Shown here one piece after another: positions 2 through 43,613 of a stretch of DNA of 64,000 nt. The DNA comes from Gammaproteobacteria bacterium (GTDB lineage: Bacteria > Pseudomonadota > Gammaproteobacteria > HK1). A model generated the notes under the pieces. That model was not told where the DNA came from, searched no databases, and saw only the letters and a program-made list of their open reading frames with translations. The stretch's first letter is position 1. Each line of letters opens with the position of its first letter. Position numbers and translations under genes: made by a program. The stretch lies in the NCBI GenBank assembly GCA_021773795.1, contig JAJFJT010000012.1, positions 62,001 to 126,000 on the forward strand, read 5' to 3'.

Positions 2-775
2 GCGGGTTTCTTTCTCGGTGGCCTGCTGCTGGCGACGCTGGGTTTTGGGCATGCCCTGTACGCCATGGCCGCTGGGCTATTCATCGTCCTGTGTGGTTCG
101 GTATTGCTGCTGCCCCGGGAGATGGGCAAGGCCAAGGCCAAGGTTAAATTTAGCTCCATCCTTTCCAAGAGCCCCGAGATCAATCGCTTGTCGGCGGCGC
201 GCTTCTTCCTCTTCGGCTCACGGGATATATGGTTTGTAGTGGGACTGCCGGTCTTTCTGCATGCATCGCTGGGCTGGAGCTTTACCCAGGTGGGCGGCTT
301 TATGGCGGCCTGGGTGATCGGTTATGGCTTCGTGCAGGCATCGGTCCCCGCGTGGATGCGTCGTGGCCACGCGCCGCGGGGGCGTACCGCGCTGGGTTGG
401 ACCACCTTGCTGAGTTTTTCCCCGGCGGCTATCGCCCTGGCACTGCAGTTTGGCGCGGATCCGGCGCTGGCCATTATCATTGGCCTCGGGCTATTCGGCG
501 CGATCTTTGCAGTGAATTCCTCCATCCATTCCTATCTGGTGCTTGCCTATACCGACGCCGATAAGGTGGCGCTTAACGTTGGCTTTTATTACATGGCTAA
601 TGCGGCCGGCCGGCTGGTGGGTACGGTGCTTTCGGGATGGGCCTTTCAAGTCTGGGGGTTGGTGGGTTGTCTGTGGGTATCGACCGCCTTCCTGCTCGCC
701 GCCGCCGCCCTCTCCCTGCTGCTTCCGGACCCGGCGAAGATCGGTACGCCCGCCGCCAGTCCTGTCGCGGGTTAA
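2..775 (+). CDS. arsJ: Organoarsenical efflux MFS transporter ArsJ-like, C-terminal part
   Basis: Partial gene: the frame is open from the first bases of the window, so the N-terminal half lies outside. The visible 257 or so residues are hydrophobic and carry several predicted membrane spans. The stretch SAARFFLFGSRDIWFVVGLP and the charged cytoplasmic loop before it (GKAKAKVKF) match my memory of ArsJ, the major-facilitator permease that exports 1-arseno-3-phosphoglycerate made by a partner GAPDH. No GAPDH is visible because upstream sequence is missing. It ends 20-40 bp before recQ on the same strand. ArsJ identity is from family resemblance; membership in the MFS superfamily is safer. Confidence 0.75.
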   Translation, partial: AGFFLGGLLLATLGFGHALYAMAAGLFIVLCGSVLLLPREMGKAKAKVKFSSILSKSPEINRLSAARFFLFGSRDIWFVVGLPVFLHASLGWSFTQVGGFMAAWVIGYGFVQASVPAWMRRGHAPRGRTALGWTTLLSFSPAAIALALQFGADPALAIIIGLGLFGAIFAVNSSIHSYLVLAYTDADKVALNVGFYYMANAAGRLVGTVLSGWAFQVWGLVGCLWVSTAFLLAAAALSLLLPDPAKIGTPAASPVAG

Positions 776-816
776 AGACATCATCCCGATAGATATTGGG
801 GAGTAGTAGCGTCCAC

Positions 817-3673: not shown

Positions 3674-3910
3674 ATGGCGAAGAAACTGAAGAACGAGAAA
3701 GAACTGGTCAAGAAGGCGATCGCGCTAGGCGTGGCGTATGGTGAAAAACGGGGTGTCGTCGAGTTTGAGGCCACGGACTCGGCCAATGAAAAACTCGAAT
3801 ATATTTATCGACTTCTCGTTCACGATAAGCTGATAGCGCCCATCCCGGAAGACCAAATTTCCCAGAAATCGATAAAGCATCGACTGGCTATTTGGGCATC
3901 GAAGCAATAG
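3674..3910 (+). CDS. Small conserved protein, DUF5062-like
   Basis: A 78-residue, lysine-rich soluble protein without signal peptide or membrane span. The run KKLKNEKELVKKAIALG and the pattern IYRLLVHDKLIAPIPEDQ ... SIKHRLAIW match what I recall of the gammaproteobacterial DUF5062 family, whose function is unknown. The open frame begins at 3632, but ATG 3674 is preferred: it has AAGAG about nine bases upstream and gives the usual family start (MAKKLK...). The gene sits alone between the isomerase and the IS element. Only family-level naming is possible. Confidence 0.7.
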   Translation: MAKKLKNEKELVKKAIALGVAYGEKRGVVEFEATDSANEKLEYIYRLLVHDKLIAPIPEDQISQKSIKHRLAIWASKQ

Positions 3911-3966
3911 GAGTAATGCTGGGTCCGGGAAATACCTCCCCTACTGTGTCACGGCTCAAATCATAA

Positions 3967-3977
3967 GGGCCAGACTC
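3967..3977. repeat. Left target-site duplication of the IS4-type element
   Basis: GGGCCAGACTC, repeated exactly at 5250-5260 on the other side of the element. Because its terminal base overlaps the inverted-repeat edge, the duplication could be read as 9 to 11 bp. Confidence 0.85.
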
Positions 3978-5249
3978 ACTGCTGTCCCACTTATTTTAAA
4001 CTCTCATAATAATGCTAACTGAGGCGATGTAAGAAATGGGTCCGGTGGTGGCTTGAATAGCTCAATCAAGTCTCGCCTTGCGAACAGATTCAAATGGATT
4101 AACGGGCCCATTTGTTGCAGGCCTTGGGTTATCCGGCCTTGGAACTTGAGAAACGCCAATATCAGATAAACGGATAAAGCCACGAAAACTTGTGTTATGA
4201 CAGCGTTGTCCGTATTACCGACAAAAGCTTTTATTTTTAAGTTTTGCTTAATCCACTTGAAGAACAACTCCACCTGCCAGCGCTGCTTGTAAATACGAGC
4301 AATGGTCTTGGCGGACCAGTCAAAATGATTGGTAATAAAGACATAATGCTTGCCCGTTTCCACATCACGATAACCTATCCGCCGTACCGGCCTGAGGTTG
4401 TTTTTGCAGGAACGAATGGATGTGTATTCGATGACTTGGTCGCTGGTTATACCTTGTGACCTATTTGCAGTACCTCGTTCCAGCACATGGTACTTTGCAT
4501 TGCCCCTAATCCGCGTCACCCAGAATATTCCTTTACTGGTCAGTTTGTTATGCCATGCATAGTCAGCATAACCCTTGTCGAATACGAGCACACTGCCGGT
4601 GGGGAAGCGCATGAGTTTGGCTTGTGTTTGGTCGCCCGTCTTGCCGGGAGTGACTGCCGCAAATGCGGGAATCAAACCATCATGGTCAAGGCCAATATGT
4701 AATTTATAAGCCGCTTTCATGCGATTGTATTCGGCTTTTGGAAAAACTTTCATAGAGACATCCAATAATGATGCGTCTAGTGAAAACAATTTTTGCTTAA
4801 AGCGAAAGCCATGTCTGGGAGAGCGGCTTTGACAGCGTGTATACAATCTCGAAAACATCTCTTCAAAGAAGCTTGGAGACAACATTTGATTCGCTTGACT
4901 CAACGTTGAACGCTTAACCATTCCGCTTCCCAGGTGGTATTGCAGGTGCTTTTGGCTTGCGAGAGTTGATTCAATATCACGCAGGCTGGACCGTCCACTA
5001 AGCTGTGCGGTTGCCATGGCAACGAACTGAGTCCAACGACTCATGGCATCACTGTGGCGACGTCCATCATGCTTTTTGGCAAGACCAGAGAATTCATGTC
5101 GTGGGGTCAATTTAAGAATCTGAGAGAACACGGTGTTATGATGAGCCAAGGCTTAAATCCTCTTGTTATTATAGTGTTTGCTAGCACTTTCATTGTAACA
5201 ACCTGTTGGGATTTAAGCCTTTTTATTGCCTTCTAAGTGGGACAGCAGT
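3978..5249 (-). mobile_element. Complete IS4-family insertion sequence, about 1.27 kb
   Basis: Both ends carry the same perfect inverted repeat: ACTGCTGTCCCACTTA at 3978-3993 and its complement TAAGTGGGACAGCAGT at 5234-5249. Sequences inside these 16-17 bp diverge. The element is flanked by an identical 11-bp direct repeat (3967-3977 and 5250-5260). The single transposase gene fills it on the minus strand. Intact ends, intact gene and perfect duplication indicate a recent insertion. Removing it joins the sequence before 3977 directly to 5261, a gap between two genes, so no gene was interrupted. Confidence 0.93.
4004..5149 (-). CDS. IS4-family transposase (DUF4372-type N-terminus)
   Basis: A 381-residue DDE transposase that cuts and pastes the surrounding element. 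Visible: an N-terminal DUF4372-like segment (HEFSGLAKKHDGRRHSDAMS), first catalytic Asp in FSLDASLLD, second in VLVFDKGYADY, and the C-terminal YREK-like signature RWQVELFFKWIKQNLK holding the catalytic Glu, followed by GNTDNAVITQV. Length is normal for this IS4 subgroup and no frameshift is seen. The stop lies only about 27 bp inside the left end of the element. Start ATG at 5149 gives MAHHNTVFSQ, typical of the subgroup. Confidence 0.95.
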   Translation of the reverse strand: MAHHNTVFSQILKLTPRHEFSGLAKKHDGRRHSDAMSRWTQFVAMATAQLSGRSSLRDIESTLASQKHLQYHLGSGMVKRSTLSQANQMLSPSFFEEMFSRLYTRCQSRSPRHGFRFKQKLFSLDASLLDVSMKVFPKAEYNRMKAAYKLHIGLDHDGLIPAFAAVTPGKTGDQTQAKLMRFPTGSVLVFDKGYADYAWHNKLTSKGIFWVTRIRGNAKYHVLERGTANRSQGITSDQVIEYTSIRSCKNNLRPVRRIGYRDVETGKHYVFITNHFDWSAKTIARIYKQRWQVELFFKWIKQNLKIKAFVGNTDNAVITQVFVALSVYLILAFLKFQGRITQGLQQMGPLIHLNLFARRDLIELFKPPPDPFLTSPQLALL

Positions 5250-5260
5250 GGGCCAGACTC
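5250..5260. repeat. Right target-site duplication of the IS4-type element
   Basis: GGGCCAGACTC, an exact copy of 3967-3977; see the mobile element entry. Confidence 0.85.
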
Positions 5261-5446
5261 GATTGATTGTGCTGAAATCTCTCCGAAAAAGGACATCCGT
5301 CCAGATAAGATCTATCTCAAATCAATGGTATATTCAGGGTGCACGGTGTGTGCCTTCCTGGCGGACTGTATGCCGGGTTCAGCGTGTACATATCCTGCCT
5401 TTATATGGTTTGTTACTTCTCACTTTTAAACAGAGGAAAGAAGCTC

Positions 5447-6202
5447 ATGTCGATGGAAGGGAAGGTGGTTGCGGTGACCGGTGGTGCTTCGGGGATTGGG
5501 GCGGAAACGGTACGGGTGTTTGCCGCTGCGGGGGCCAAACCGGCGGTGTTGGATCTGGACAAGGATGCGGCCGATGCGCTGGCCGCGGAGACCGGTGGTA
5601 TCGGTCTGCTAACCAACGTCTGTGACAATGATTCGGTGATTGCTGCCTTTGCGGCCATCAAGCAGAAATTTGGTCGAGTGGATGTGGTGATTTCCAATGC
5701 CGGGATTTCAGCGCCGGGATACATGCTTGAGATATCCGACGAGCTCTTTCACCGCAGTTTCGAGGTTAATTTCTTTTCCCATCACCTGGTCAGCCGTGCA
5801 GCGGTCAAACTGATGCGCGAAGGGGATGGCGGCTGCATTCTCTACAATGCATCGATGGTTGCGGTGAATCCAGGGCCGAATTTGGGTGGCTATGGTGCCC
5901 CCAAGGCCGCGGTGCTTTATTTGATGCGCCAATATGCGGTTGAGCATGGCAAGGATGGCATTCGCTGCAATGCACTGAACGCGGCGCGGGTGCGCTCGGG
6001 GATTACCACCGACAAGTTTATTGCCGAGCGTGCGGAGGCCCGTGGCGTTTCCAAAGAGGAATACATGCGCGGCAACCTGCTCCAGCACGAGGTCACGGCC
6101 AACGATGTAGCCAATGGCTTCCTGTTGCTGGCCCAAGCGGAGGCCACTACCGGCACGATCCTGACGGTGGATGGCGGTATCGGAGCCGGCTTCCCGCGTT
6201 AG
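5447..6202 (+). CDS. SDR-family NAD(P)-dependent oxidoreductase
   Basis: A 251-residue classical short-chain dehydrogenase: cofactor motif TGGASGIG near residue 11, NAG (SNAGIS), catalytic Ser in NASMVAVNPG, Tyr-Lys pair in YGAPKAA and C-terminal TVDGGIGAGF. The stretches GYGAPKAA, NALNAARVRSG, ARGVSKEEYM and NLLQHEVTA closely recall the C-terminal dehydrogenase half of the fused rhamnulose-1-phosphate aldolase/lactaldehyde dehydrogenase proteins, but no aldolase half is present. Start ATG 5447 has AGAGGAAAG at 5432-5440; the frame is open further upstream without a better start. Substrate unknown. Confidence 0.85.
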   Translation: MSMEGKVVAVTGGASGIGAETVRVFAAAGAKPAVLDLDKDAADALAAETGGIGLLTNVCDNDSVIAAFAAIKQKFGRVDVVISNAGISAPGYMLEISDELFHRSFEVNFFSHHLVSRAAVKLMREGDGGCILYNASMVAVNPGPNLGGYGAPKAAVLYLMRQYAVEHGKDGIRCNALNAARVRSGITTDKFIAERAEARGVSKEEYMRGNLLQHEVTANDVANGFLLLAQAEATTGTILTVDGGIGAGFPR

Positions 6203-6430
6203 CTAATAATCCCGGGAGGTGGACACGCGGCATTGCTTTCCGGGGCGTACCTATCCCGCTTTCCGGCGAACAGCCGGAGGTCGGGCGCTGTCGTCGCTAC
6301 GAAAATCGGCGCTGTGTTCCTGTCCGAGAGGAACCCTTCCCACCCCTGTGAGTCAGTAAAACCATCGGCCTGTCGATGCAGAGCGTAGTGAGCGAGGTCG
6401 GTATTCCCCTGGCAACGGTGGTTTCGGCCC

Positions 6431-7651
6431 ATGGCAATTTCGGCAGCGCAACGCTTCGACGATTCCTTTTCCATTCATATGATCCGGGATTTTTTCCTGG
6501 TACTGCTCGGCGTCATTTTGATTGAACTGGGGATACGTTTTGCCTTGGTCATTTACGACTTCAATACCAAACAGAAAGTCGTTACCCAGCGCACCGCAGA
6601 ACGTCTGGCCACCGATGTCCAGACCATCATGCTCAATCGTGGTGGCGCGGTGGCGGCACGTACCGTTTATCCTATCCTGCGCCGGAATCATGACCGCCTT
6701 GGTTTTTCCGTCGCTATCCAGCCGTCGGCCATTACCATTGAATCGATCCAAAGCATTTTCAGCTTTACCCCACAAGGGATCCTTCCCGTATGGCCCGAGG
6801 GCCGCCATCAAGAAGCGCGGGTAGACATTGCGGCGGAACAATTCTGTGTGCAGTGCCATGTCACCGCCAAACCGGGAGATATTCTCGGTGAGGTGACGGT
6901 GCGAAGTTATCTGGATCGGCAGCTACAGGATTGGTGGCACGAGGTGAAGCTCACCGGCACCTTGGGTATGCTAAAGATCCTGCTGCACACTATCGTGTTG
7001 TTTTTGTTACTGAAAATTCGCATGGAGCCACTGGTTTCTCTGCAGGCAGTGATTACCTTGTTGGCAAAGGCGGGCTCGGATCTCTCGCATCGCGCTCCCA
7101 TCAAATCGAAGGATGAATTTGGTGAGCTGGCGCGTGATCTGAATCTGTTTCTCGACCGTCTTTGCCAGATCGTTGAGGATCTCGGTGGCGTGCTGACGCA
7201 TATCACTGGTATCAATAAACGGCTGATCACTGTGCATGATCAGATGGGTGGTCATTATCGTGATGTTGATTCCAAAACTCTGGAGATCGTTACGCGTGCC
7301 CACACCGGTGCACGGATAAACCCGGTGTTATCGGAGGAATGGCTATCCAGCGTAGAGGGCTTACTCGTGAGCTTGGAGAAAATCGAGCAGACGGATGGGG
7401 TGACAATGGAGCAGAGCGAGGCGATAAGAAAACTTGTCAGTCCGCTTAAATACCTCGCTAAAGGCGCGGGAGAGGCCTTTGAGTTGCAGACTCGGGTTGG
7501 GCTGGATTTGACCGGGTTGTCTACCAGGGTACGAGATTTTTCACGTTGGCTTGAGGAAATGGCAGTGCTGGAGGAGAAAATGCGTACTATCTCTGAGCAG
7601 GGTCAGACTTTGCTACAGCGATTGACGGAGCAGAAAGGCGACGATGAGTAA
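6431..7651 (+). CDS. Membrane-bound c-type-heme sensor-like protein with HAMP domain, no output domain
   Basis: A 406-residue protein: transmembrane helix at about 20-42, a periplasmic domain of about 135 residues ending in a heme-attachment motif CVQCH (Cys139, Cys142, His143), a second helix at about 178-196, and a HAMP-like linker (197-250) with DEFGELARDLN. After that come only helical, coiled-coil-prone segments; no histidine-kinase, GGDEF or methyl-accepting signature is seen. The architecture resembles DUF3365/Tll0287-type heme sensors. An alternative start, ATG 6479 (MIRDFFLV), removes 16 residues; neither start has a clear ribosome-binding site. The role, perhaps redox or gas sensing passed to a partner, is inferred. 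Confidence 0.75.
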   Translation: MAISAAQRFDDSFSIHMIRDFFLVLLGVILIELGIRFALVIYDFNTKQKVVTQRTAERLATDVQTIMLNRGGAVAARTVYPILRRNHDRLGFSVAIQPSAITIESIQSIFSFTPQGILPVWPEGRHQEARVDIAAEQFCVQCHVTAKPGDILGEVTVRSYLDRQLQDWWHEVKLTGTLGMLKILLHTIVLFLLLKIRMEPLVSLQAVITLLAKAGSDLSHRAPIKSKDEFGELARDLNLFLDRLCQIVEDLGGVLTHITGINKRLITVHDQMGGHYRDVDSKTLEIVTRAHTGARINPVLSEEWLSSVEGLLVSLEKIEQTDGVTMEQSEAIRKLVSPLKYLAKGAGEAFELQTRVGLDLTGLSTRVRDFSRWLEEMAVLEEKMRTISEQGQTLLQRLTEQKGDDE

Positions 7652-7736
7652 TGCCAAATCTGTGATTTCGTTGCTGAAGCGCGTGGGGCAAACATGCCGG
7701 CCGCAAGATACAAGTTCAAGAATAGATCAGGGAGCC

Positions 7737-9362
7737 TTAGCGTTTTAATAGTGGCAGTGCTCGCGCGATGGGAACGCCGAGGTTTGAGCCACCGAATTCG
7801 GGCAGCACCGCTGCATTGACGGCGATGACCTCCCCATTTATATTCAGTACTGCTCCACCACTAGCGCCGCGCGTAGTTTCTGCATCGTAGACCACCGCCT
7901 CGGGGGTAACCTGGCCAACGATCCCACGGGTAGCCAAAGGCGTTATCCGGCCTTCGTTAGAGAGTTTTTCAACGACGTTCCAAAAATTGAGATCACCGCT
8001 TTCACGGATTTTTTTCAGGAAGCGTTCGTCGGTTCTTGCCAGCATGGCCCGGATCCCCGTTGGATAAGCAATGATGATAATCTCGTCGCCAGGACGCGCC
8101 GGCATGGAGCTCATGCTCAGATGGGAAGCTTGGCCGCTAATTTTGTCGCCCTGTAGGATGGCGATATCGGCTTCGTCACTCACATGGAGCAGTTTCACTG
8201 CAAATGATTGCTTGATACCGGGCAGATAGCCGATCAGGCGGCGGCTAACAGGCTTCAGGTTCATCTCGGAGGTGAACCGGAGTACATCGCTCTCCTCCCA
8301 GGGAAGCGCAACGTGGCGGGCAGTCAGCAGCAGGCCATCTTCAGTCGCGACAAATGCCGTTCCTGTGTACTGAAATTCGACGACTGGCCCATTTCCGTCG
8401 AGGCTGATTTCCGGTCCCTGTTCCGTCACCCTTGGCTGGCCATTCGGATCTGAACTGACGTAGCGTAATGGTTGCCCCGTATCCTTTTCAACAAAATCGT
8501 AACTGCCTTGCAGGAAGACCGTAGATTTTGATGCCGTCGAGATAATTCGGGTAGTCGCGGCCGAGCGGGCTTCCAGGGCGGTAAGGCGGTCTGCCGTGGT
8601 TAACAGATGAATTTCGATCTCGGTTCGGACGGCGGCGAGGTCCTTTTCGGTAATGGCCCGTTGCTGAGCATGCTCAAGTACCCCGGAGATACCCTGCGTG
8701 CGTGCCTCCTCCTGGGCGAGACGCGTCCGTAAATTCCAGCTTTGGTATGTCAGGAGGATGACGCTCAAGAACAACAAAGTGAGGGCCGAGAGCACCCCGA
8801 TACGAAACCAAAGAGGACTCCGTATCAGGAATTCTCTCGATACGGAGCCGATGAATCGGCTACTACGTTTAACGAAAGTCTCATCGTAGTAACGGACGCA
8901 GTCTATGCAATCGGCGAAGGCATCGGCGGTCGAGCGGCATGGGGCAGTTCCCAGTGTATATAAACGAAAGCGAAGCATAGGCCCGTTGCGGCCAATCTCA
9001 AGCACATCGCCGGAAGCAAGCACTTTTTGGCTCACTTTTTTGCCGTTTACCCAGACCTCGTGGCCGGGGCTGACGTCCAGTTCGTAGGTCAGGCCTGAGT
9101 GGTGCAGTTTTGCGGGAGGGTCATCGTCCGGACTTTCCCCCGGGGCTACGATCTCCACTTCGTTAACGGCCGGGCTGCGAATGAAATGGGTCTGTTCCGA
9201 AAGTTGCGTATTGGTACCGCGTCGCCGTCCAGACATATAGATGATGACGGATAGTGGAATATCTCCGGGATCCGTATGAGTCGGAGAGGGGACGGTGGTC
9301 GGCTGGTCGTTGGTCGTCATCCCCTGTGGCCTATTGATTGGACGGATCCGGCGCTTCGTCAA
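7737..9362 (-). CDS. Membrane-anchored FHA-like / trypsin-like serine protease
   Basis: A 541-residue protein. Residues 35-135 look like a degenerate FHA domain (VWVNGKKV, LASGDVLEIG), cytoplasmic by topology. One membrane helix lies at about 186-206, followed by a coiled coil (about 210-270). A trypsin-like domain fills about 330-541 with a visible triad: His350 (LLTARHVA), Asp399 (EADIAIL), Ser501 (TRGASGGAV). The protease would be periplasmic. A Cys-rich patch (DCIDC) lies before the helix. It is convergent with the heme/HAMP gene. The combination suggests phosphopeptide or partner binding inside and proteolysis outside; the target is unknown. ATG 9320 (MTTNDQ) is an alternative start. Confidence 0.82.
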   Translation of the reverse strand: MTKRRIRPINRPQGMTTNDQPTTVPSPTHTDPGDIPLSVIIYMSGRRRGTNTQLSEQTHFIRSPAVNEVEIVAPGESPDDDPPAKLHHSGLTYELDVSPGHEVWVNGKKVSQKVLASGDVLEIGRNGPMLRFRLYTLGTAPCRSTADAFADCIDCVRYYDETFVKRSSRFIGSVSREFLIRSPLWFRIGVLSALTLLFLSVILLTYQSWNLRTRLAQEEARTQGISGVLEHAQQRAITEKDLAAVRTEIEIHLLTTADRLTALEARSAATTRIISTASKSTVFLQGSYDFVEKDTGQPLRYVSSDPNGQPRVTEQGPEISLDGNGPVVEFQYTGTAFVATEDGLLLTARHVALPWEESDVLRFTSEMNLKPVSRRLIGYLPGIKQSFAVKLLHVSDEADIAILQGDKISGQASHLSMSSMPARPGDEIIIIAYPTGIRAMLARTDERFLKKIRESGDLNFWNVVEKLSNEGRITPLATRGIVGQVTPEAVVYDAETTRGASGGAVLNINGEVIAVNAAVLPEFGGSNLGVPIARALPLLKR

Positions 9363-9419
9363 ATGCGCCCGATTGTCTTTCAGCAGCTAATCGATGACAA
9401 GTTGTCGCTATAAAACGCC

Positions 9420-10004
9420 CTATAGCTTGCTATCAGCTTTTTGGATTAGCTGCATACCCCAGTGGTAAGGCTCGAGGATTTTACTGGTACCACGATAATC
9501 CAGAGTTAATCCGTCTATTGCATTTAATATCCGCTCTTGATCTGGTCGGGTATTAACTGCCGGGCCACGTGGGGTTGCAACGTCCTTTCTCCAGTGAATA
9601 ATGGCAACCGTGCCGCCATGCTTGAGAATGCGTGCCGCCTCTTCAAGAAATATTCTTTTCTCACGGAGGTGGAGAATATTAAAAAGTAACACCATGTCGA
9701 TGCTGTCAGACTCAAGCCCCGTACCTCGCTCAAGTACATCTCGCAATGCAAAGTTTATATTCGAAACACCTGCCTTTCGGGCATTACTCTTCGCGACTTC
9801 AAGCATTGATGGCTCAATATCAAAGGTATAAATGTCACCTGCTGAACGCACCGCGAGCGGCACTGTGAAAGTGCCATAACCACAGCCGATTTCGACTATT
9901 GTGGCTGCTTCTTTCGGGAGGGCCAGCCATTCAATAATGCTGTCTATATTGAACAGGCTGTTCCAGTAGCTCTCTTCTGGCATGCCGCTGTTTTCAACCT
10001 TCAT
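9420..10004 (-). CDS. Class I SAM-dependent methyltransferase
   Basis: A 194-residue Rossmann methyltransferase with motif I VEIGCGYGTFTVPLA near residue 38, the acidic end of strand 2 (YTFDIEPSM), and post-motifs DMVLLFNILHL and ARILKHGGTVAIIHW. It is the last gene of a minus-strand run; its ATG overlaps the stop of the upstream PQQ-type dehydrogenase by four bases (ATGA), so translation is probably coupled. The substrate cannot be told from sequence; small-molecule methylation is as likely as any. Confidence 0.83.
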   Translation of the reverse strand: MKVENSGMPEESYWNSLFNIDSIIEWLALPKEAATIVEIGCGYGTFTVPLAVRSAGDIYTFDIEPSMLEVAKSNARKAGVSNINFALRDVLERGTGLESDSIDMVLLFNILHLREKRIFLEEAARILKHGGTVAIIHWRKDVATPRGPAVNTRPDQERILNAIDGLTLDYRGTSKILEPYHWGMQLIQKADSKL

Positions 10005-11251
10005 TTTGTTTCCCGATAGAGACGAAAGAGGGCTTGGGTGCCCGCATCACTGGTAAAATAGAGGCTGCCGTCAGGGCCGGCCGCGACTCCCGCCGGGCGT
10101 GCCCAGCGCGAGCCATTGGGGCGTTGAAAGCCGGTCACCAGATCATCCACCCGCCGCGCTTCTCCTCCCATAAAGCGAACCAGCACCAATTTTGGCGGGC
10201 GCCGGCTGGCACGGGAACCCAGATAGGAGCCTTTCGGGCGAGTCCCCCAGGATCCGTGCAGGGCCACCACGGCATCCCCGGACCAGGGTTGTTTGGCTGC
10301 GGTAGGCAGAAAGGCCATGCCGAGCGGTGCGTTACGCGCTGGAAAGGTAAGGACGGGTGGTGAAACCTCATTAAGTGGGCGAGGTGGCGGACCGGAGACG
10401 CAGCGGTCGCGCCGTATCTGCCGGCCATCGAACTGGAACCAGGGCATACCGTGGAAGGAACCCGGAGCTATGCGGCTGAAGTACTCCGGGGGCTGCTCGA
10501 ATCCGAGGTGATCGGGACCGTTATTGGTGGCGTAGAGGTCCGCGGTTCGCGGATGCCAGTCAAAGCCTACCGGGTTGCGCAGGCCTGAGCCGTAGGGCTG
10601 CCATTGCGGTGGGTCGGTATTTTCGTCGAGCACCAGGATGCCACCTCGGCGTGCGGCAACGGGATAGCTCGGGTGCAGATACTGATTGGAGCAATTGCCA
10701 CTTAGACCAAGGCTCAGGTAGATGCGGCCATCGGGTCCGATACCGAGGGTACGGCTGTTGTGCCCCCGGCCACCGGGCAAGGGTGCCAGTAATCGCAAGC
10801 TGCTCATCCGTAGCTTTGCTCCACGGGCGGGACGGGGGCCATGCCAGAGTCCGGCGGTTTGAGCGATGAGGATTTCCTCCCCCCGTATCGCAAGGCTATG
10901 GGGATAATCAGACAAATTTCCGATCACCTCGGTCTGGCGATACGGCGGATAGAGGCGATAGATCTTTCCCGAGCGCGAACCTATCCAGAGCACGCCTTGT
11001 TTGTCGAAATGCATCATGCGAGGGCTATCGAGTTCCGCCGTGAGTAGTTTCAGCCGGTAACCCGCTGGCACCCGCACACGGTGGATTTGTCCCGCCACCA
11101 TCAGGTTCTGCTCCCGGTACTGCAAGGCCGGGGGTGGAGTTGGCGTCTGCTGCGTATGGGTGTCGGTGGCGAAGGTAGTGGTGACGAGGCTGCTGGCTAC
11201 CATCATCGAGAGGGCAGCAAAGAGGGAGCCAAAGGCTTTGTGGGCACTCAT
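10001..11251 (-). CDS. PQQ-dependent sugar (sorbosone-type) dehydrogenase, secreted
   Basis: About 416 residues from ATG 11251, with signal peptide MSAHKAFGSLFAALSMMVAS ending near TTFA. The body is a six-bladed beta-propeller of the soluble glucose/L-sorbosone dehydrogenase family: GVLWIGSRSGKIYRL, HSLAIRG, RTLGIGPDGRIYLSLG, GLRNPVGFDWHP, DLYATNNGPDHLG and GPDGSLYFTSDAG. Such enzymes oxidise aldoses or aldehydes in the periplasm using PQQ; many relatives have no proven substrate. The frame is open back to 11365, but ATG 11251 overlaps the esterase stop by four bases and gives the signal peptide. No PQQ synthesis genes are in the window. Confidence 0.85.
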   Translation of the reverse strand: MSAHKAFGSLFAALSMMVASSLVTTTFATDTHTQQTPTPPPALQYREQNLMVAGQIHRVRVPAGYRLKLLTAELDSPRMMHFDKQGVLWIGSRSGKIYRLYPPYRQTEVIGNLSDYPHSLAIRGEEILIAQTAGLWHGPRPARGAKLRMSSLRLLAPLPGGRGHNSRTLGIGPDGRIYLSLGLSGNCSNQYLHPSYPVAARRGGILVLDENTDPPQWQPYGSGLRNPVGFDWHPRTADLYATNNGPDHLGFEQPPEYFSRIAPGSFHGMPWFQFDGRQIRRDRCVSGPPPRPLNEVSPPVLTFPARNAPLGMAFLPTAAKQPWSGDAVVALHGSWGTRPKGSYLGSRASRRPPKLVLVRFMGGEARRVDDLVTGFQRPNGSRWARPAGVAAGPDGSLYFTSDAGTQALFRLYRETK

Positions 11252-12174
11252 GCTTTGCCTGCTCGGAAATATGCGTCTGCGTAGGCGCCGGATTCCTGGA
11301 TGCACTGCTTTGCCTCGGGCAATAGTGGGGCGAAGAGTGGCACGACATGGGGGGTGTGATCCCATATCTTCAGCTTTGCGTGTACTCCTGCCGCTTGCGC
11401 TTTGACCACAAAGCGCTCGGAATCACTCAACAGAATCTCCGTATTGCCGGCATGGATGAGTAGGGGTGGCAGGCCATGGAGATTGCCGTAGAGCGGGGAC
11501 ACTCCGGGGGTCCGGGGATCAGTGGCGGCGTGATAGAGCTGTGCCACCGGCGACAGCAAAGAGGCCAGCAGCAGGGGGTCGGCCTCGGCATTGCTGCATA
11601 GCGATTCACCTTCGCCCACCAGATCGGTCCACGGTGAAAAAGCGATGGTTGCCACCGGAAGTGGATCGCCCCGGTCACGCAGATCGAGCAGCATGGCGAG
11701 GGCAAGACCCCCGCCGGCGGAATCCCCGGCAACGATCAGCTGCTGGCTCGCGTAACCCTGCGCCAGTAGCCAGTGCCAGCAGTGGCGTACATCTTCCAGT
11801 GCGGCGGGCCAGGGATGCTCCGGAGCGAGCCGATAGGCCGGCACGAGTACCGCCACACGGGCAGCGGCGGAGAGCCGGGCGGCCAGCGCGCGGTACAGGC
11901 GCGGCGAGCCCATGATGTAGGCGCCACCGTGGACATACAGGATGGCGCGATCAGGATTCGCGCACGGAGCCATGATCCGCTCCGCACTAACGCCATTCAT
12001 ATCAATGTGTTCAACGGCGACACCGAAGGCCGCTGGCGGGATGCAGCGGGCGATTAATTCCAGATGAGCCCGGGTATCGAGTGCGGTGGTGGAATCGACG
12101 GTTTTGATGCGGGCAAGACGCCGCTTAACCGTGGCGCGGAGGAAGTGGTTGAGAAGAGTCCCCTGCCAACTCAT
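11248..12174 (-). CDS. Alpha/beta hydrolase, hormone-sensitive-lipase-type esterase
   Basis: A 308-residue carboxylic-ester hydrolase. Oxyanion-hole motif HGGAYIMGS near residue 83, nucleophile elbow GDSAGGG near 150, then Asp in the ILLSDSERF region and His in HTPHVV complete the expected triad of the HSL (family IV) esterases. No signal peptide, so cytoplasmic. It begins about 40 bp after the tolC stop on the same strand and overlaps the dehydrogenase gene by four bases. The three-gene set (esterase, secreted dehydrogenase, methyltransferase) may act on one alcohol or sugar ester, which is inference from coupling only. Confidence 0.87.
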   Translation of the reverse strand: MSWQGTLLNHFLRATVKRRLARIKTVDSTTALDTRAHLELIARCIPPAAFGVAVEHIDMNGVSAERIMAPCANPDRAILYVHGGAYIMGSPRLYRALAARLSAAARVAVLVPAYRLAPEHPWPAALEDVRHCWHWLLAQGYASQQLIVAGDSAGGGLALAMLLDLRDRGDPLPVATIAFSPWTDLVGEGESLCSNAEADPLLLASLLSPVAQLYHAATDPRTPGVSPLYGNLHGLPPLLIHAGNTEILLSDSERFVVKAQAAGVHAKLKIWDHTPHVVPLFAPLLPEAKQCIQESGAYADAYFRAGKA

Positions 12175-37467: not shown

Positions 37468-37917
37468 TTAGTCACAATGTTTGGCGATGGCATCTTTGAG
37501 TTCACGGGTAGCTACCTGGCGCTGGGTGTCAGTTAGGATATTACGCTTCTCATCCTCGCCTTTCTGGTAGAGGTAGTGGGCATCGCGGATGTCGCGTAGC
37601 TGCTTACGCGCCTTGGCGCATTTTTGTGCCAGCTTTCGTTGTTTGTCCCGTTTTTTCTGCTGATCTTCCTGTTTGCGCTGACGTTCTATTTCGAAGGCTT
37701 TTAGCAGGCGTTTTTGTTTCTGTATTCGCTGTTTGCCAGAGGGGTTTGGCGATGTCTTGTTATGGCTGTCTATCTCAACTTTTTGGGCCGACGATTGTCC
37801 GGGGCGATCGCCATAATGCACCTTGCCGCCTTCATCCATCCAGCGATAGATCTTCGCCGCGGAAACTGATGAGGCACACAGCAGACAGGGCAGCACCACC
37901 GCTACCCATCGCCTCAC
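37468..37917 (-). CDS. DUF4124 domain protein, exported
   Basis: 149 residues. Signal peptide (VAVVLPCLLCASSVSA), then a short DUF4124 domain, KIYRWMDEGGKVHYGDRPG, and a long very basic coiled-coil region with many Lys, Arg and Gln (about 60-125). DUF4124 proteins are periplasmic and of unknown function, common in gammaproteobacteria. Its ATG overlaps the stop of the P-II-like gene by four bases, making it the last gene of the antiporter operon, though it may have its own role. Confidence 0.85.
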   Translation of the reverse strand: MRRWVAVVLPCLLCASSVSAAKIYRWMDEGGKVHYGDRPGQSSAQKVEIDSHNKTSPNPSGKQRIQKQKRLLKAFEIERQRKQEDQQKKRDKQRKLAQKCAKARKQLRDIRDAHYLYQKGEDEKRNILTDTQRQVATRELKDAIAKHCD

Positions 37918-38246
37918 GCCTCCTCCTCGATTTCAGGTAGCCGGTAGGAGGTTGCCTTGATCAGCGCCTGCATATACATCAGTCCACCATGCGGTTGATC
38001 AATTTCTGCAGCCTCGTAGAGAAACTCGAAAATCTCATTCGCCTTGCGGGTGCTTACCACCACATCCAGGACTTCCTTCTCCGTGGTTTCGCCCACGCCA
38101 CGGTAGGTCAGCGGAGTGAGGTGCCCGGCACCCCGGGCGCTGTGGATGTTGGCGGTGATAATGCCTTTGTCTTCCTTCAACGCCTTCATGACCGGCATGG
38201 CCTTGCCCTTGGGGAGGATGCAGCTGATGAGTTTCTCGCTGGCCAT
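37914..38246 (-). CDS. P-II-like signalling protein (second copy)
   Basis: 110 residues with the ferredoxin-like P-II fold: KLISCILPKGKAMPVMKALKE, a shortened T-loop region around GAGHLTPLTYRGVG, EKEVLDVVVST, and a C-terminal GGLMYMQALIKATSY. The uridylylated Tyr of GlnB is not recognisable, so it is a divergent P-II of the kind linked to transporters rather than to nitrogen metabolism. Six bases after the first P-II gene; probably forms hetero- or homotrimers that bind nucleotides and regulate the DUF1538 protein, by inference. Confidence 0.82.
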   Translation of the reverse strand: MASEKLISCILPKGKAMPVMKALKEDKGIITANIHSARGAGHLTPLTYRGVGETTEKEVLDVVVSTRKANEIFEFLYEAAEIDQPHGGLMYMQALIKATSYRLPEIEEEA

Positions 38247-38252
38247 TCCGCT

Positions 38253-38642
38253 TTACCTTTGTCCAGACTTGCGAAGTGCCTGGCGATTGGCCAGTCGCTC
38301 GACGATTTCGTGGGGGATGTAGGTGGCCGCCTTCTCCAGACGGGTGACGTACATCATGCCCATGCCCGGCGTGCCGAGATCGCCGGCGTGGTAGATGCGC
38401 TCAAAGACACGATCGAGCTGATCGTCGGCGACTACGGTGGTGATGACTTCCTTTTCTACCTCAATGGCGAGGCCAACGACACCGAGTCGTTCCCGCACGC
38501 CGCTGCCCTTGCCGTAGTGAATGGTTGCGCCCTGAGCACCCGCTTCCTGGGCTGCCCGGACAATTTTGTCGGCAATACCGCGCTGCACGATGCAGGTAAT
38601 CAGCGCGGCATCGGTGAGGACGGGAATTTCTTTTTCGCTCAT
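38253..38642 (-). CDS. P-II-like signalling protein (first copy)
   Basis: 129 residues: ALITCIVQRGIADKIVRAAQ, HYGKGSGVRERLGVVGLA in the T-loop/B-loop position, KEVITTVVADDQLDRVFERI, and GMGMMYVTRLEKAATYIP at the C-terminus. Like its neighbour it lacks the GlnB uridylylation Tyr. Its ATG overlaps the stop of the DUF1538 gene by four bases. Two different P-II-like proteins behind one DUF1538 transporter recur in several gammaproteobacteria as I recall; they are likely regulators gating transport in response to nucleotide ratios. Confidence 0.83.
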   Translation of the reverse strand: MSEKEIPVLTDAALITCIVQRGIADKIVRAAQEAGAQGATIHYGKGSGVRERLGVVGLAIEVEKEVITTVVADDQLDRVFERIYHAGDLGTPGMGMMYVTRLEKAATYIPHEIVERLANRQALRKSGQR

Positions 38643-40411
38643 GTCACGGTCTCCAGCGTAGTGGTGGATTCTTGTTCAATTTGTTCATGACGGAGGCGGA
38701 TCTTGCGTTGGATCCACAACCCCGTCCCCAGCACTGCCAGGATCGGACCGATGGATGCCATGGAGAGTATGCCAAAACCCTCAATGGCACCGACGGCATT
38801 GCCAAAACCGATGCCCATGGAAAGCACCAGCGGGACGGTGACCGGGCCGGTGGTTACGCCGGCACTATCCCAGGCGATGTTGACGTATTCCTCGGTGGAT
38901 AGGGCGGTCATGATCACTGCCAGCAGATAACCTGGGAGCAGCAGATAGATGATCGGGATGGCAAAGACGATTTTCAGTACTCCCAGAGCAATGCCGCTGC
39001 CGACCCCAAAGGACACCGCGTACATCAGCAGCTTTTTTGGAAAAGCACCGTTAGTGAGATTTTCCACGGTGAGACCCAGGGCATTGAGGGCTGGTTCGGC
39101 GAGGGTCGCTCCGAAACCCAGGAACCAGGCAAACAGCAGTGCCACGAGGATGCCAAAGACGAAGGAGTAGAGCGGGGAGTTGGCGACCACATCAATCCGG
39201 GTAAAGGCGGCGGGTACGAGGCCACCGGACTGACCACCCAGTTTGGCGAGACCGTAGCTCAGCCCGATATTGAAGATGATCATTCCCAGCAATGCGAGGC
39301 CGATCCCGTAGCTGATTTCTGCCGGTTTGCTGAGCTTTTCCCGCAGCACCACGCTCAACACCAGCATCAGAAAAATCACCAGCGGCACGATGGCGCGCAG
39401 GCCGCCAAGTATTTCCAGCCCCGGGGTTCGGGCATACCAGGCCAGAGTATCGATGGCCGCGGGGATGGCGGCAGCGGTGACTATGAGTTCGGCAGGCGAG
39501 CTGACACTAGCCACATACAGGGCGAGCAGCATGACGGACATGATCGGGAACAGGGAGGCGAGGGTAACGATGCCAAAGCCCGACAGGGAGGATTCGCCCT
39601 TGCCCGCAGCCGCGGCGATACCGATGCCGAGAGAGAGCATCAGCGGTACAGTAATTGGCCCAGTGGTGACTGCACCACAATCCCATGCCAACCCCAGGAT
39701 TTCCCGCAGTTCCGGATCGGCGGAGATATACAGGCTAAGACCAATGGTGGGGATGAGCGTCAGGTATACCAGTGGTTTGAGACTCCATCCGTAGAGGAAG
39801 CGGAGGGTGCCGATGACCGCGGCGAGCCCGACCCCGGCTCCCACACCCAGCACCAGGGTGTCCGCCCACTGGTTGAGCAGTGCGTGCAGGTAGGGGGCAT
39901 CTTCGGCACGTACGTTGGAGCCAGCCGTTTTCAGGGCGCCAATGGCGGGCTCGGCAAAGGTCACGCCGATGCCGAGCAGCAGCGTGATGGTGAGTACCGT
40001 GGGCAGGGCCGAGCGTGATGGCAGGATGGTACCGATGGTTTGGCCAAAGGGCATGAGGCCAACCTTGAGGCCCTCCATGAACAGCATCAGGCCTACGATG
40101 ACGGACAGTAGCCCAGCGGTGATGATCGATGAATCGGTAACATTCTGGCGCAGCACCAGCAACTGAAACAGCATGAGATACAGCGCCAATGGCACTACTG
40201 CCCGCAGCTGTTCCAGCAGGCGTACGCTTACATAGGGCTGGATAACGGAATAGATTTCTGCGGGCCGGAGTTGTAGCCGACCCGGACGATAGGGCAATGC
40301 CTCACCCGCTGCGTCGGTTTTCATCTCCGGGACCAGCTCGTTGTAGCTAAGCGGAAGCTCGCGTCCGGCGATCTCCTGGATAAAGGTGCCAAAACGAATT
40401 TTCGTAGTCAT
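38639..40411 (-). CDS. DUF1538 membrane protein, two fused domains (UmpA/UmpB-like antiporter)
   Basis: 590 residues and about 14 predicted membrane spans in two homologous halves (about 45-290 and 320-575). Each half carries the motif TTGP-TVP (AVTTGPITVPLMLSLGIG; GVTTGPVTVPLVLSMGIG) and GFGI-ASL-PI. In Halomonas, as I recall, two separate DUF1538 proteins UmpA and UmpB together form a sodium/proton antiporter; here both are joined in one chain. It overlaps both neighbours by ATGA, which ties it to the CPA1 antiporter and the P-II proteins. Transport activity is inferred from those relatives. Confidence 0.85.
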   Translation of the reverse strand: MTTKIRFGTFIQEIAGRELPLSYNELVPEMKTDAAGEALPYRPGRLQLRPAEIYSVIQPYVSVRLLEQLRAVVPLALYLMLFQLLVLRQNVTDSSIITAGLLSVIVGLMLFMEGLKVGLMPFGQTIGTILPSRSALPTVLTITLLLGIGVTFAEPAIGALKTAGSNVRAEDAPYLHALLNQWADTLVLGVGAGVGLAAVIGTLRFLYGWSLKPLVYLTLIPTIGLSLYISADPELREILGLAWDCGAVTTGPITVPLMLSLGIGIAAAAGKGESSLSGFGIVTLASLFPIMSVMLLALYVASVSSPAELIVTAAAIPAAIDTLAWYARTPGLEILGGLRAIVPLVIFLMLVLSVVLREKLSKPAEISYGIGLALLGMIIFNIGLSYGLAKLGGQSGGLVPAAFTRIDVVANSPLYSFVFGILVALLFAWFLGFGATLAEPALNALGLTVENLTNGAFPKKLLMYAVSFGVGSGIALGVLKIVFAIPIIYLLLPGYLLAVIMTALSTEEYVNIAWDSAGVTTGPVTVPLVLSMGIGFGNAVGAIEGFGILSMASIGPILAVLGTGLWIQRKIRLRHEQIEQESTTTLETVT

Positions 40412-42867
40412 CGGGGTTCCTGTTCCGGGTTTTTCTGGCGACCTTTGCTAGCCTCTACCAGTCGTTGTTTGACCTCCGGGTGCTGCTTGGCGAGATAGAG
40501 CACGTCTTTGCGAATCAGGCGCAACAGCGTGGCCGGGGTCTCGGCCCGTACCGTCGCGGTGCGTAGTGAATCACCCAGCAATGCGGTTTCCCCGAAGAAG
40601 GCACCTTCGGTGAGGCAACCGAGCCGGGTTTCTCCATCTTGTGGTGTGTGATGAAACACCCCGACTTCGCCGCGTATAAGGATGTACAAGGCGTCACCTT
40701 TTTCCCCCTCACCAATGATTTCATCACCCATTAAAAAGGTGACCTGACGGGCATGCTGGGCGAGGGCGCCCAGGGCATTAACCGACAGGCCGGCAAATAA
40801 GGGCACCATCTGGATCAGCTCTTCGGGCGTGGGCTGTGGCAATGGTACTGAAATGGGTGGCAGGGACTCCAATGCCTCGTGTATACGTTCAGAGATGCGG
40901 GTATAGGCTTTTGCACCTACGGTGCCGTGGTGGTGTGCCTGTCCGGTGTTTTGCAGTGCCGAGCTTAGCGCGACGCGGCTGAACAGGCGGGACTCGTAAC
41001 GTCGGTAGAATTCGGGGAATTCACGCCGAATGGTTTCCAACCCCTGTTGACGGCGTTGCAGACGATCCGCGTAGGTTGCCATGATCGGTGCGCAGGCATC
41101 AGCAGGAAATTCCGGGTGCGCTCGCAAAGCCCGGAGCACTGTATCGGCCATCAGTATGCCGGCAATGGTGCGTTCCAGGCGCTGCGATAGACGCAGATTC
41201 TGGTAGCGGGATAAAAAGCCACTGGCCCAGTTGCGTTCCCGCAGGCGACGCAACAGCGCCGTTTCCAGTCGGAGAAACAGGCTTCTTCCCTGAGCCGGCC
41301 CGGTGACCGCGCCGGGATCCTGGCGGCGGCGTTGATCCCGATCGCGCTGTAACAGGTTACGCAAGTCGATGTAGCTGTATTGGGTAATGAGGTCCAGACC
41401 ATAAAGCCGGGCCAGTTCCACTTGCTCGACACGCAAGGCAAAGAGATAGACATCCCGGGCTGCCTCGCTCTCTGCCGCGGTCGTGCTGTTGGTTTCGAGC
41501 ACGGTAGCGAGATCCTTGCGAAAGCGATGCACCCCCGCCTTGGAAATAACCCCGGAATCGTGCATCTCATCGATACTTTGTTCCACCTGGTGGCGGGCCT
41601 CCAGCATGCCCTGTTTAAGTTCGGCCCGGTCTTCCCGGGTCATGCGATCAAGCCCCAGCCTGTGCATCAATGGTCGAATGGTGGGGGCATTGATCAGCAG
41701 GGTAAAGAGCACTACCCCCAAGGTCAGATCGAGTAGCAAGGGGCGGCCGGGAAAGTCCTCGGGTATGGAGAGAACAATGGCGATGGCAAGTCCACCTTTG
41801 AGCCCGCCCCACCACATAATGTGTTGCTCCCCCCGGCTGATTCTGGGCAAGGAGAAAAACCGGGTGGTTAGCGGTACCAGGCTGTAGAGGATAGCGGCGC
41901 GTGCGGCCATCACCAGGGCAACTACCACAAGAATGACGCCGAGGCGTGAGGCCAACTCTGCGGGATGGATGGCGAGCCCCACCAACAGGAATAGCAGGGA
42001 ATTGGCAATCAGGGCGAGAAATTCCCAGGTTTCACCCAGGCTATCGGTGGCCTCTTGATGCAGGCGGGCGACGCCGTAAATTCCCAGGGCGAGGGCTGCA
42101 CTCACCGCCGCCATCACCCCGGAGACATGCCATACGTGCTCGGCTAGGATAAAGCTGCCGTAGGCGAGCACCAGAGACATGGTGAGGATGGCACTTAAGC
42201 CACTTTTCAGTCGATAGAGTAGTTCGGAAACGACCAGCCCAAGTACTGCACCGACCAGTGCGCCACCAAGAAAGATGCGCAGAAAGTCGAGTACCGCAGA
42301 GCCGAACAGGGTCCAGTCATGAGTGCCCCCCTCAACGCTGATGCCGAGCAGAATGGTAAACAGCACGATGGCAGTGGCGTCATTGAGCAGGGACTCGCCT
42401 TCCACTAATACCGTCAGCCGCTGCGGCGCACCCAACTCCCGAAACAGGGCCACCACGGCCACTGGATCGGTGGCGGAGATCAAGGCGCCAAAGAGCAGGG
42501 CGGTGACCGGCGCCAGGCCGATGAAGAGGCTCAGACCGCTACCGATAAGGAAGGTGGAGATCAGCAATGCCGGGATGGCCAGCATCAGCACTGGCACGAG
42601 GTCGCGGAGCAGCAAGCGTGCATTGAGGTTAAAGCCGGATTCAAATATGAGTGCCGGCAGGAAGATAAAGAAGACGATTTCCGGGCTCAGGCGAAATGTT
42701 TGTAGCGGGGCGAGTGGTTGCCAGACATCCGCAACACTGCCGAGCACGATACCGATGAGCACCAGCAGCACAGTGAAGGGAATGGGGAGATTACGGCACA
42801 GCCCGGCAGCGATGATGGCCACTGCCAGCAGGCCCATGATAACCAGTACGGTTTCCGAGATCGGCAC
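40408..42867 (-). CDS. CPA1 cation:proton antiporter with C-terminal cyclic-nucleotide-binding domain
   Basis: 819 residues. The first 400 form an NhaP/NHE-type antiporter with about 12 spans; the ion-binding ND pair is in ESLLNDATAIVLF, with SATDPVAVVALFRELG before it and FLPALIFESGFNL early. Residues 410-680 are soluble and helical. About 690-805 is a cNMP-binding fold: GDALYILIRGEVGVF and the phosphate cassette FFGETALLGDSLRTATV, in which the Arg is kept. This layout recalls sperm-type NHEs. It starts the operon and is predicted to exchange Na+ or K+ for H+ under nucleotide control. Confidence 0.9.
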   Translation of the reverse strand: MPISETVLVIMGLLAVAIIAAGLCRNLPIPFTVLLVLIGIVLGSVADVWQPLAPLQTFRLSPEIVFFIFLPALIFESGFNLNARLLLRDLVPVLMLAIPALLISTFLIGSGLSLFIGLAPVTALLFGALISATDPVAVVALFRELGAPQRLTVLVEGESLLNDATAIVLFTILLGISVEGGTHDWTLFGSAVLDFLRIFLGGALVGAVLGLVVSELLYRLKSGLSAILTMSLVLAYGSFILAEHVWHVSGVMAAVSAALALGIYGVARLHQEATDSLGETWEFLALIANSLLFLLVGLAIHPAELASRLGVILVVVALVMAARAAILYSLVPLTTRFFSLPRISRGEQHIMWWGGLKGGLAIAIVLSIPEDFPGRPLLLDLTLGVVLFTLLINAPTIRPLMHRLGLDRMTREDRAELKQGMLEARHQVEQSIDEMHDSGVISKAGVHRFRKDLATVLETNSTTAAESEAARDVYLFALRVEQVELARLYGLDLITQYSYIDLRNLLQRDRDQRRRQDPGAVTGPAQGRSLFLRLETALLRRLRERNWASGFLSRYQNLRLSQRLERTIAGILMADTVLRALRAHPEFPADACAPIMATYADRLQRRQQGLETIRREFPEFYRRYESRLFSRVALSSALQNTGQAHHHGTVGAKAYTRISERIHEALESLPPISVPLPQPTPEELIQMVPLFAGLSVNALGALAQHARQVTFLMGDEIIGEGEKGDALYILIRGEVGVFHHTPQDGETRLGCLTEGAFFGETALLGDSLRTATVRAETPATLLRLIRKDVLYLAKQHPEVKQRLVEASKGRQKNPEQEPR

Positions 42868-43223: not shown

Positions 43224-43613
43224 GTGAAAACGTTGTTCTTCGGCAGCTGCGGCGTATTCACCTGAGGAATGGCACGGGACGAGATGTACCCCTCCCCCAG
43301 TTGTTATATAAGATGGACGGATAGTGTCGGTGCTATAACCGGCTGGGATTTTAATCTCCATAGCGCACTCAGTGGGGGTAGGGCGAATAACACCGTAACT
43401 TTTAACCGCGGCTCCTCCGACCCCTCTGCCCCTCCTCCTCCCCCTGGAATTGATTTTACGAATTTAATCTTAGGCAACGGCCAAGTCTCATTCGTAGACG
43501 CCAACCCAGGGGTGTGGCGCACGTCCGAAGTCTCGGCGCCCGAGCCTGCCACACTCGCTTTACTGGGTCTCGGCCTGGCCGGTGTTGGCTTCAGCCGGCG
43601 AAAGACAAGCTAA
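43224..43613 (+). pseudogene. PEP-CTERM protein gene interrupted by an in-frame stop
   Basis: GTG 43224 after GGAGG reads VKTLFFGSCGVFT, signal-peptide-like, then hits TGA at 43263-43265. The same frame continues from ATG 43269 for 114 residues and ends in a clear PEP-CTERM sorting tail: APEPATLALLGLGLAGVGFS then RRKTS. PEP-CTERM proteins are processed by an exosortase and tied to exopolysaccharide. With the stop and a very short ectodomain the copy is probably dead; a sequencing error or a recoded stop cannot be excluded. Confidence 0.6.

Follow-up and report, generated by a model that had tools for sequence, protein, structure and literature searches.

P-II proteins are trimers with many soluble targets and are among the most widespread signal carriers of bacteria. 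In excerpts of the literature they bind and block the transporters AmtB and SbtA, and the transporter partners reviewed there are few, function as trimers and carry ammonium, nitrate/nitrite, urea or bicarbonate (PMC10710835, PMC8352866). A different kind of transporter is formed by UmpAB of Halomonas zhaodongensis, a pair of DUF1538 proteins; it is reported to be a Na+(Li+,K+)/H+ antiporter that gave Escherichia coli KNabc salt and alkali tolerance, in a paper that presents its results as the first on the function of this family (PMC5484666). A word search of that paper finds no P-II. Here, we examine a gene cluster in which the two themes meet, found in 64,000 nucleotides of a gammaproteobacterial contig (JAJFJT010000012.1, positions 62,001 to 126,000; the window). 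A fused DUF1538 transporter gene is followed by two genes for divergent P-II proteins, copies A and B, and is preceded by the gene of a CPA1-type Na+/H+ antiporter. Our favoured explanation, to which we assign a probability of about 0.7, is that dedicated, non-canonical P-II proteins gate a DUF1538 cation/proton exchanger, much as GlnK gates AmtB.

The locus shares features with each of these systems and departs from all of them. As in GlnK–AmtB and SbtB–SbtA, genes for proteins of the P-II fold lie beside that of a membrane transporter, and a role as a cytoplasmic cap that acts on the path of transport is proposed here from gene linkage. Unlike those systems, the transporter is a DUF1538 protein, not known to be trimeric, and it is accompanied by two P-II genes or, in relatives, by chains of two or three P-II domains. 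The P-II proteins differ from GlnK and SbtB in a T-loop five residues shorter and in the loss of Tyr51, Lys90 and, in copy A, Arg101 and Arg103. Both halves of the window transporter are DUF1538 in the order UmpA/UmpB, as in UmpAB; in contrast to that pair, the halves are fused, carry an N-terminal extension, score far under the equivalog cut-offs and have P-II partners. Finally, the antiporter resembles the CPA1 subfamily with a cyclic-nucleotide-binding (cNMP) tail in its membrane domain with an N-D motif and its C-terminal cNMP domain, but its gene overlaps that of DUF1538 and its score lies under the a_cpa1 equivalog cut-off.

Gene order around DUF1538

Contigs of species-representative genomes were scanned for the fused DUF1538 protein, and the best 80 of 312 relatives were fetched. 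Their record titles span Gamma-, Beta-, Alpha- and Zetaproteobacteria, Nitrospinota, Bdellovibrionota, Campylobacterota, Myxococcota, Gemmatimonadota and Elusimicrobia; the titles are partly at family level, the phylum then being assigned by us, and those of metagenome-assembled genomes (MAGs) may be misbinned. A locus counted as informative when at least 900 bases lay downstream, which held for 73 loci, the other seven contigs ending sooner. One of the 73 (L124) was set aside because unknown residues mask the region past the start of copy A, leaving 72; a P-II/SpoIIE fusion read in the same locus was rejected, as its open reading frame (ORF) crosses this masked stretch.

The order DUF1538, A, B on one strand was found in 71 of the 72 informative loci (71 of 73 with L124 counted), and, with genes truncated at a contig end counted in, an A-type P-II follows DUF1538 in 78 of all 80. 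From stop to stop, the median distance is 380 nt between DUF1538 and A (77 loci) and 350 nt between A and B (74 loci). Each is about the length of one P-II gene, so the core is closely spaced. When a copy-B profile was run against 369 gammaproteobacterial genomes, all 13 matches of at least 80 bits lay beside DUF1538. The DUF1538-A-B arrangement is far beyond chance. The original prediction had treated DUF1538 and P-II as a single unit with steady gene order, and this survey of DUF1538 neighbourhoods upholds it, both for the fused form and in all 40 of the split or short loci described below. Other neighbours, identified by neighbour clustering and by Pfam scans of 20 ORFs picked by hand, mostly out of 78 candidates, include GST, Ppx/GppA, enolase and PLD proteins; within that sample, no recurrent extra partner besides CPA1 was common.

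Non-canonical P-II proteins

Copy A is a recognizable P-II protein (Pfam PF00543, 34.8 bits against a cut-off of 25), and copy B falls under the same cut-off at 20.2 bits. Copy B nevertheless belongs to the family: it matches the copy A profile with an hhalign probability of 99.7 over 107 columns, and its AlphaFold model (monomer, mean pLDDT 85.7) is predicted to share the fold of GlnK1 (2j9d; Z 12.6, rmsd 2.3, 94 residues aligned).

Residues were numbered by alignment to E. coli GlnB. Both window copies have a gap at position 51, in agreement with the prediction that they lack the modified tyrosine, and uridylylation at that residue is thereby excluded. Tyrosine occupies position 51 in none of 83 A copies and none of 40 single copies, and among 78 B copies it lies outside the six commonest letters, which cover 72. 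The T-loop of copy A, lacking Tyr51, is five residues shorter. Lys90 is absent throughout (0/82 A, 0/78 B, 0/38 single copies). No A copy of 81 has arginine at 101 or at 103; among B copies arginine is found at 101 in six of 78 and at 103 in seven of 78, the window copy keeping Arg103, and the trimmed alignment of single copies ends before both positions. Gln39 has become arginine in 78 of 83 A copies, while glycines 35, 37, 87 and 89 are mostly kept. The same genome encodes two canonical P-II proteins that keep Tyr51, Gln39, Lys90, Arg101 and Arg103, one of them adjoining an ORF that reads by eye as an ammonium transporter.

We take Lys90, Arg101 and Arg103 to be ATP-phosphate ligands of canonical GlnB and GlnK. 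The original prediction had moved from the loss of Tyr51 to direct nucleotide control, a step that does not follow, because Lys90 has also gone from A and B, and Arg101 and Arg103 from A. The lost ligands argue against ordinary sensing of ATP and 2-oxoglutarate and point to a signal other than the known ones, which may still be another nucleotide.

Split, short and multi-domain forms

DUF1538 was found in 126 of 398 sampled genomes of the window's phylum, and the 30 best-scoring loci were examined together with ten further split or short loci, one from the window's own genome and nine from relatives of our choosing. P-II adjoins DUF1538 in all 40 (30/30 best-scoring and 10/10 chosen). Split UmpA and UmpB pairs and the shorter fused forms have one P-II each, which in one locus (L047) lies on the upstream side of DUF1538. 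The second DUF1538 locus of the window's genome (L035, contig C13) is likewise a split pair with one P-II; its proteins score 361.6 and 352.2 bits against the UmpA and UmpB equivalog models, under the cut-offs of 490 and 500. A rule that fused forms have two P-II proteins and split forms one was rejected, since the short fused loci L041, L134 and L143 have one.

Plasmids carry further variants. Nine plasmid records had a match and seven were opened, the other two being of species already opened. In all five opened Bacillota records a fused DUF1538 gene is followed by a two-domain P-II (L279–L282 and L284), either a protein of 222–224 residues or, in two unannotated records, an ORF; the first domain is weak in L279 (i-E 0.0013). 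Where annotated, these proteins are named solely 'P-II family nitrogen regulator'. Both opened alphaproteobacterial records have split DUF1538 genes and one P-II.

In five of the 369 gammaproteobacterial genomes (G565, G634, G750, G548 and G691), DUF1538 is directly followed by a chain of three P-II domains, about 380–410 residues long, encoded as one fused ORF in four genomes and as two overlapping frames in G634. Searched with the A profile, each chain shows two domains (the first weak in G691, i-E 0.0074), and that of G750 also the third (i-E 3.9e-8). Aligned segments of the five chains match the A profile with probabilities of 98.2, 99.6 and 97.1 for the first, second and third domains; compared directly, the third and first segments do not match (probability about 10). 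P-II proteins being trimeric, such a chain looks like a single-chain trimer. The titles and abstracts listed in literature searches contained neither DUF1538 with P-II nor a three-domain P-II. Genome G750 holds both architectures, a CPA1-DUF1538-A-B operon in the order of the window (L248) and DUF1538 with the three-domain P-II (L244).

The DUF1538 transporter

The window protein matches DUF1538 (PF07556) with 350 bits against a cut-off of 22.6, in two stretches, and the UmpA and UmpB models (NF041627 and NF041628) match best in that order. It begins with a hydrophilic extension of about 60 residues. Four acidic residues are invariant in 48 fused proteins: E154 and E439, in two AEPA motifs, and D244 and D515, in two WD..VTTGP motifs. 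The structural model (pLDDT 79.6, pTM 0.78) has about seven membrane helices per half, with helix breaks at or beside both kinds of motif, and its loop charges mostly fit a topology with both termini inside. The best hit of a second structural alignment, to the exchanger NCX_Mj (Z 5.8, rmsd 5.9, 150 aligned), was rejected as lying within background.

The cNMP-tailed antiporter

The CPA1 protein of the window is assigned by Pfam Na_H_Exchanger (PF00999, 204 bits, cut-off 26.2) and by a C-terminal cNMP_binding domain (PF00027, residues 709–796, 68.3 bits, cut-off 27.5); against a_cpa1 (TIGR00831) it reaches 216.6 of the 279.6 bits required for an equivalog. N162-D163, which we take to be the CPA1 N-D motif, is invariant across ten relatives. 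The cNMP domain carries FGETALLGDSLRTATVRA, canonical-looking by the pattern FGE...R.A, presumably the phosphate-binding motif.

The original prediction made this protein part of one module with DUF1538 and P-II. A five-gene module, in which the two exchangers act together, one under cyclic-nucleotide and the other under P-II control, is the alternative that survives best, though we hold it to be somewhat improbable. In its favour, the CPA1 and DUF1538 genes share an ATGA overlap in the window, and CPA1 adjoins DUF1538 in eight of the 80 fused loci (L050, L051, L064, L068, L072, L076, L081 and L084), as well as in G750 and G663 (in the latter a partial ORF), in three arrangements relative to the core: upstream, downstream and divergent. 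It is absent from the other 72 loci and, among the 48 with room on both sides, from 43, being adjacent in five. On a tree of 34 CPA1 domains, which left out two short linked sequences, the nine linked rows are clustered when compared with shuffles and form three groups requiring three changes; these are compatible with three gains or with a single gain followed by two losses.

Co-occurrence points the same way. Among genomes that carry the two-gene or three-domain P-II system, eight of 19 had a near-full-length match to a cNMP-CPA1 model, compared with 14 of 350 genomes lacking such a system (p = 2e-6); with the window genus excluded, the figures are five of 16 and 14 of 350 (p = 7e-4), phylogeny being handled in these statistics by collapsing or dropping that genus alone. 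Most of the proteins used to build the model were linked ones, and at most two candidates per genome were scored. Such matches occur in 22 of the 369 gammaproteobacterial genomes, 14 of which have neither P-II system, and a common saline habitat could account for the co-occurrence. Membership of the module thus stands in part: excess co-occurrence and three groups on the tree speak for it, and adjacency in just eight of 80 loci against it. We read the cNMP-tailed CPA1 protein as a real but optional partner, sparse and recurrent, to whose association habitat could contribute.

A further hint of a link to cyclic nucleotides comes from a MAG titled Rhodospirillales (L089), in which a 464-residue ORF with a cNMP-binding domain (73 bits) starts less than 100 bases past copy B.

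Operon layout of the window

The five ORFs and the domains named for them by the original prediction are all present on the minus strand (table 1). ATGA overlaps had been claimed at three junctions; two are as described, at 40408–40411 and 38639–38642, whereas the third, at 37914–37917, reads GTGA. Copy B starts 6 nt past the stop of copy A. The DUF4124 gene, also counted in the module, is found at the end of the operon in two of the 80 loci, L050 and L051, both of the window genus, and was rejected as a module part; a further DUF4124 match lies about 2.6 kb off in locus L038. At the operon end, DUF4124 is a genus-specific passenger. Adjoining the upstream end of the operon is a small ORF with the tail PEPATLALLGLGLAGVGFSRRK, which by its motif is presumably PEP-CTERM-like.

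Table 1. Coordinates of the window genes and of features in related loci.
Sequence	Feature	Position	Strand	Description
Window	cNMP-tailed CPA1-type Na+/H+ antiporter gene	40408..42867	-	819 aa, GTG start, long tail; Pfam Na_H_Exchanger and cNMP_binding
Window	Fused UmpA-like and UmpB-like DUF1538 transporter gene	38639..40411	-	590 aa, about 14 transmembrane helices; Pfam DUF1538
Window	P-II copy A gene	38253..38642	-	129 aa; shortened T-loop, lacks Tyr51, Lys90, Arg101 and Arg103; Pfam P-II
Window	P-II copy B gene	37914..38246	-	110 aa; divergent P-II, lacks Tyr51, Lys90 and Arg101, keeps Arg103; profile and fold
Window	DUF4124 protein gene, last in operon	37468..37917	-	149 aa; Pfam DUF4124, 48.6 bits
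Window	Small ORF	43269..43613	+	Adjoins upstream end of operon
L035	Split UmpA and UmpB, one P-II	7743..9819		Own genome
L089	ORF with cNMP-binding domain	10594..11988		464 aa
L090	Fused DUF1538 locus	8001..9722		No P-II in fetched stretch
L242	Three-domain P-II	335..1591		
L243	Three-domain P-II	9075..10265		
L244	Three-domain P-II	8879..10117		G750
L244	DUF1538 and three-domain P-II	8879..12087		G750
L245	Three-domain P-II	9638..10813		
L246	Three-domain P-II	8486..9664		
L248	CPA1-DUF1538-A-B operon	4260..9398		G750
L279	Two-domain P-II	3991..4665		Bacillota
L280	Two-domain P-II	3952..4635		Bacillota
L281	Two-domain P-II	3966..4634		Bacillota
L282	Two-domain P-II	3966..4634		Bacillota
L284	Two-domain P-II	3772..4776		Bacillota

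A proposed P-II switch and its alternatives

A P-II switch for DUF1538 is the simplest reading, because the linkage holds whether DUF1538 is fused or split and P-II single or duplicated, and does so across phyla, even as other neighbours change. We propose that the fused DUF1538 protein is a monovalent cation/proton antiporter of about 14 helices, in which UmpA-like and UmpB-like halves have been joined. Copies A and B, whose genes overlap or closely follow one another and that of the transporter, would be co-produced with it. On its cytoplasmic side they would set its activity, probably assembled into a single A/B P-II trimer, and the N-terminal extension of the transporter may be their docking site. 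As the canonical Lys90 and part of the T-loop are lost in both copies, they most likely read a signal other than the usual ATP and 2-oxoglutarate. In the window genus, the cNMP-tailed CPA1 protein would have been added as a second exchanger with a sensor of its own.

Several observations weigh against this scheme. One of the 72 informative fused loci (L090) has no P-II in the fetched stretch. The two halves of the window protein reach 206.8 of 490 bits for UmpA and 156.2 of 500 for UmpB, so the transported ion is not secured. In its second half, the loop at 505–509, expected to be cytoplasmic, has no positive charge, and no confident relative of the model was found in the PDB (Foldseek best E 0.043). 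Halomonas UmpAB is reported to work in E. coli from an insert of four ORFs that include no P-II (PMC5484666); its own P-II is therefore not required for transport.

The low scores also lend something to an alternative that we regard as unlikely, namely that DUF1538 is not primarily a Na+/H+ antiporter and that P-II controls the import of a nutrient ion, for example ammonium, potassium or bicarbonate. The P-II partners listed in the review excerpts carry nutrients of this kind (PMC10710835, PMC8352866), and antiport in the family goes back to a self-described first report. That report nonetheless gives Na+(Li+,K+)/H+ antiport with salt and alkali tolerance in E. coli KNabc (PMC5484666), and another paper tabulates DUF1538 among the genes that inform on growth pH (PMC13255231). 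More unlikely still is that the P-II proteins act elsewhere, for instance on transcription or on some other enzyme, and share no more than expression with DUF1538: the many soluble targets of P-II and the activity of UmpAB without its own P-II would allow it, but the adjacency is kept in split, fused, Bacillota and proteobacterial forms whose other neighbours differ, and all 13 strong copy-B matches adjoin DUF1538.

Significance of a proposed DUF1538–P-II partnership

No open-access paper describing a DUF1538–P-II partnership was found, and a word search of open-access papers naming DUF1538 returned no mention of P-II, the one 'pii' hit being letters of a sequence motif. Beyond P-II control of the exchanger itself, we offer a wider interpretation more tentatively: DUF1538 and P-II may be ancient partners in many phyla, P-II having shifted away from the sensing of ATP and 2-oxoglutarate and exchanged the homotrimer for asymmetric assemblies suited to a pseudo-twofold, non-trimeric transporter. 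Such assemblies would be represented by the paired A and B genes, by the two-domain chains of Bacillota and by the three-domain, single-chain trimers of some Gammaproteobacteria. If true, this would contradict the rule, as stated, that P-II regulation is limited to transporters functioning as trimers. Either DUF1538 trimerises or the geometry is new, a question that can be tested with the A/B pairs and the fused P-II chains.

Such a partnership, almost unbroken among the loci we examined, would extend the targets of P-II to a class of ion exchangers serving sodium/potassium and pH balance, and divergent genes now labelled as nitrogen regulators would acquire a suggested function. The natural two- and three-domain chains lend themselves to studies of the reason for P-II trimerisation and of the workings of its asymmetric states.

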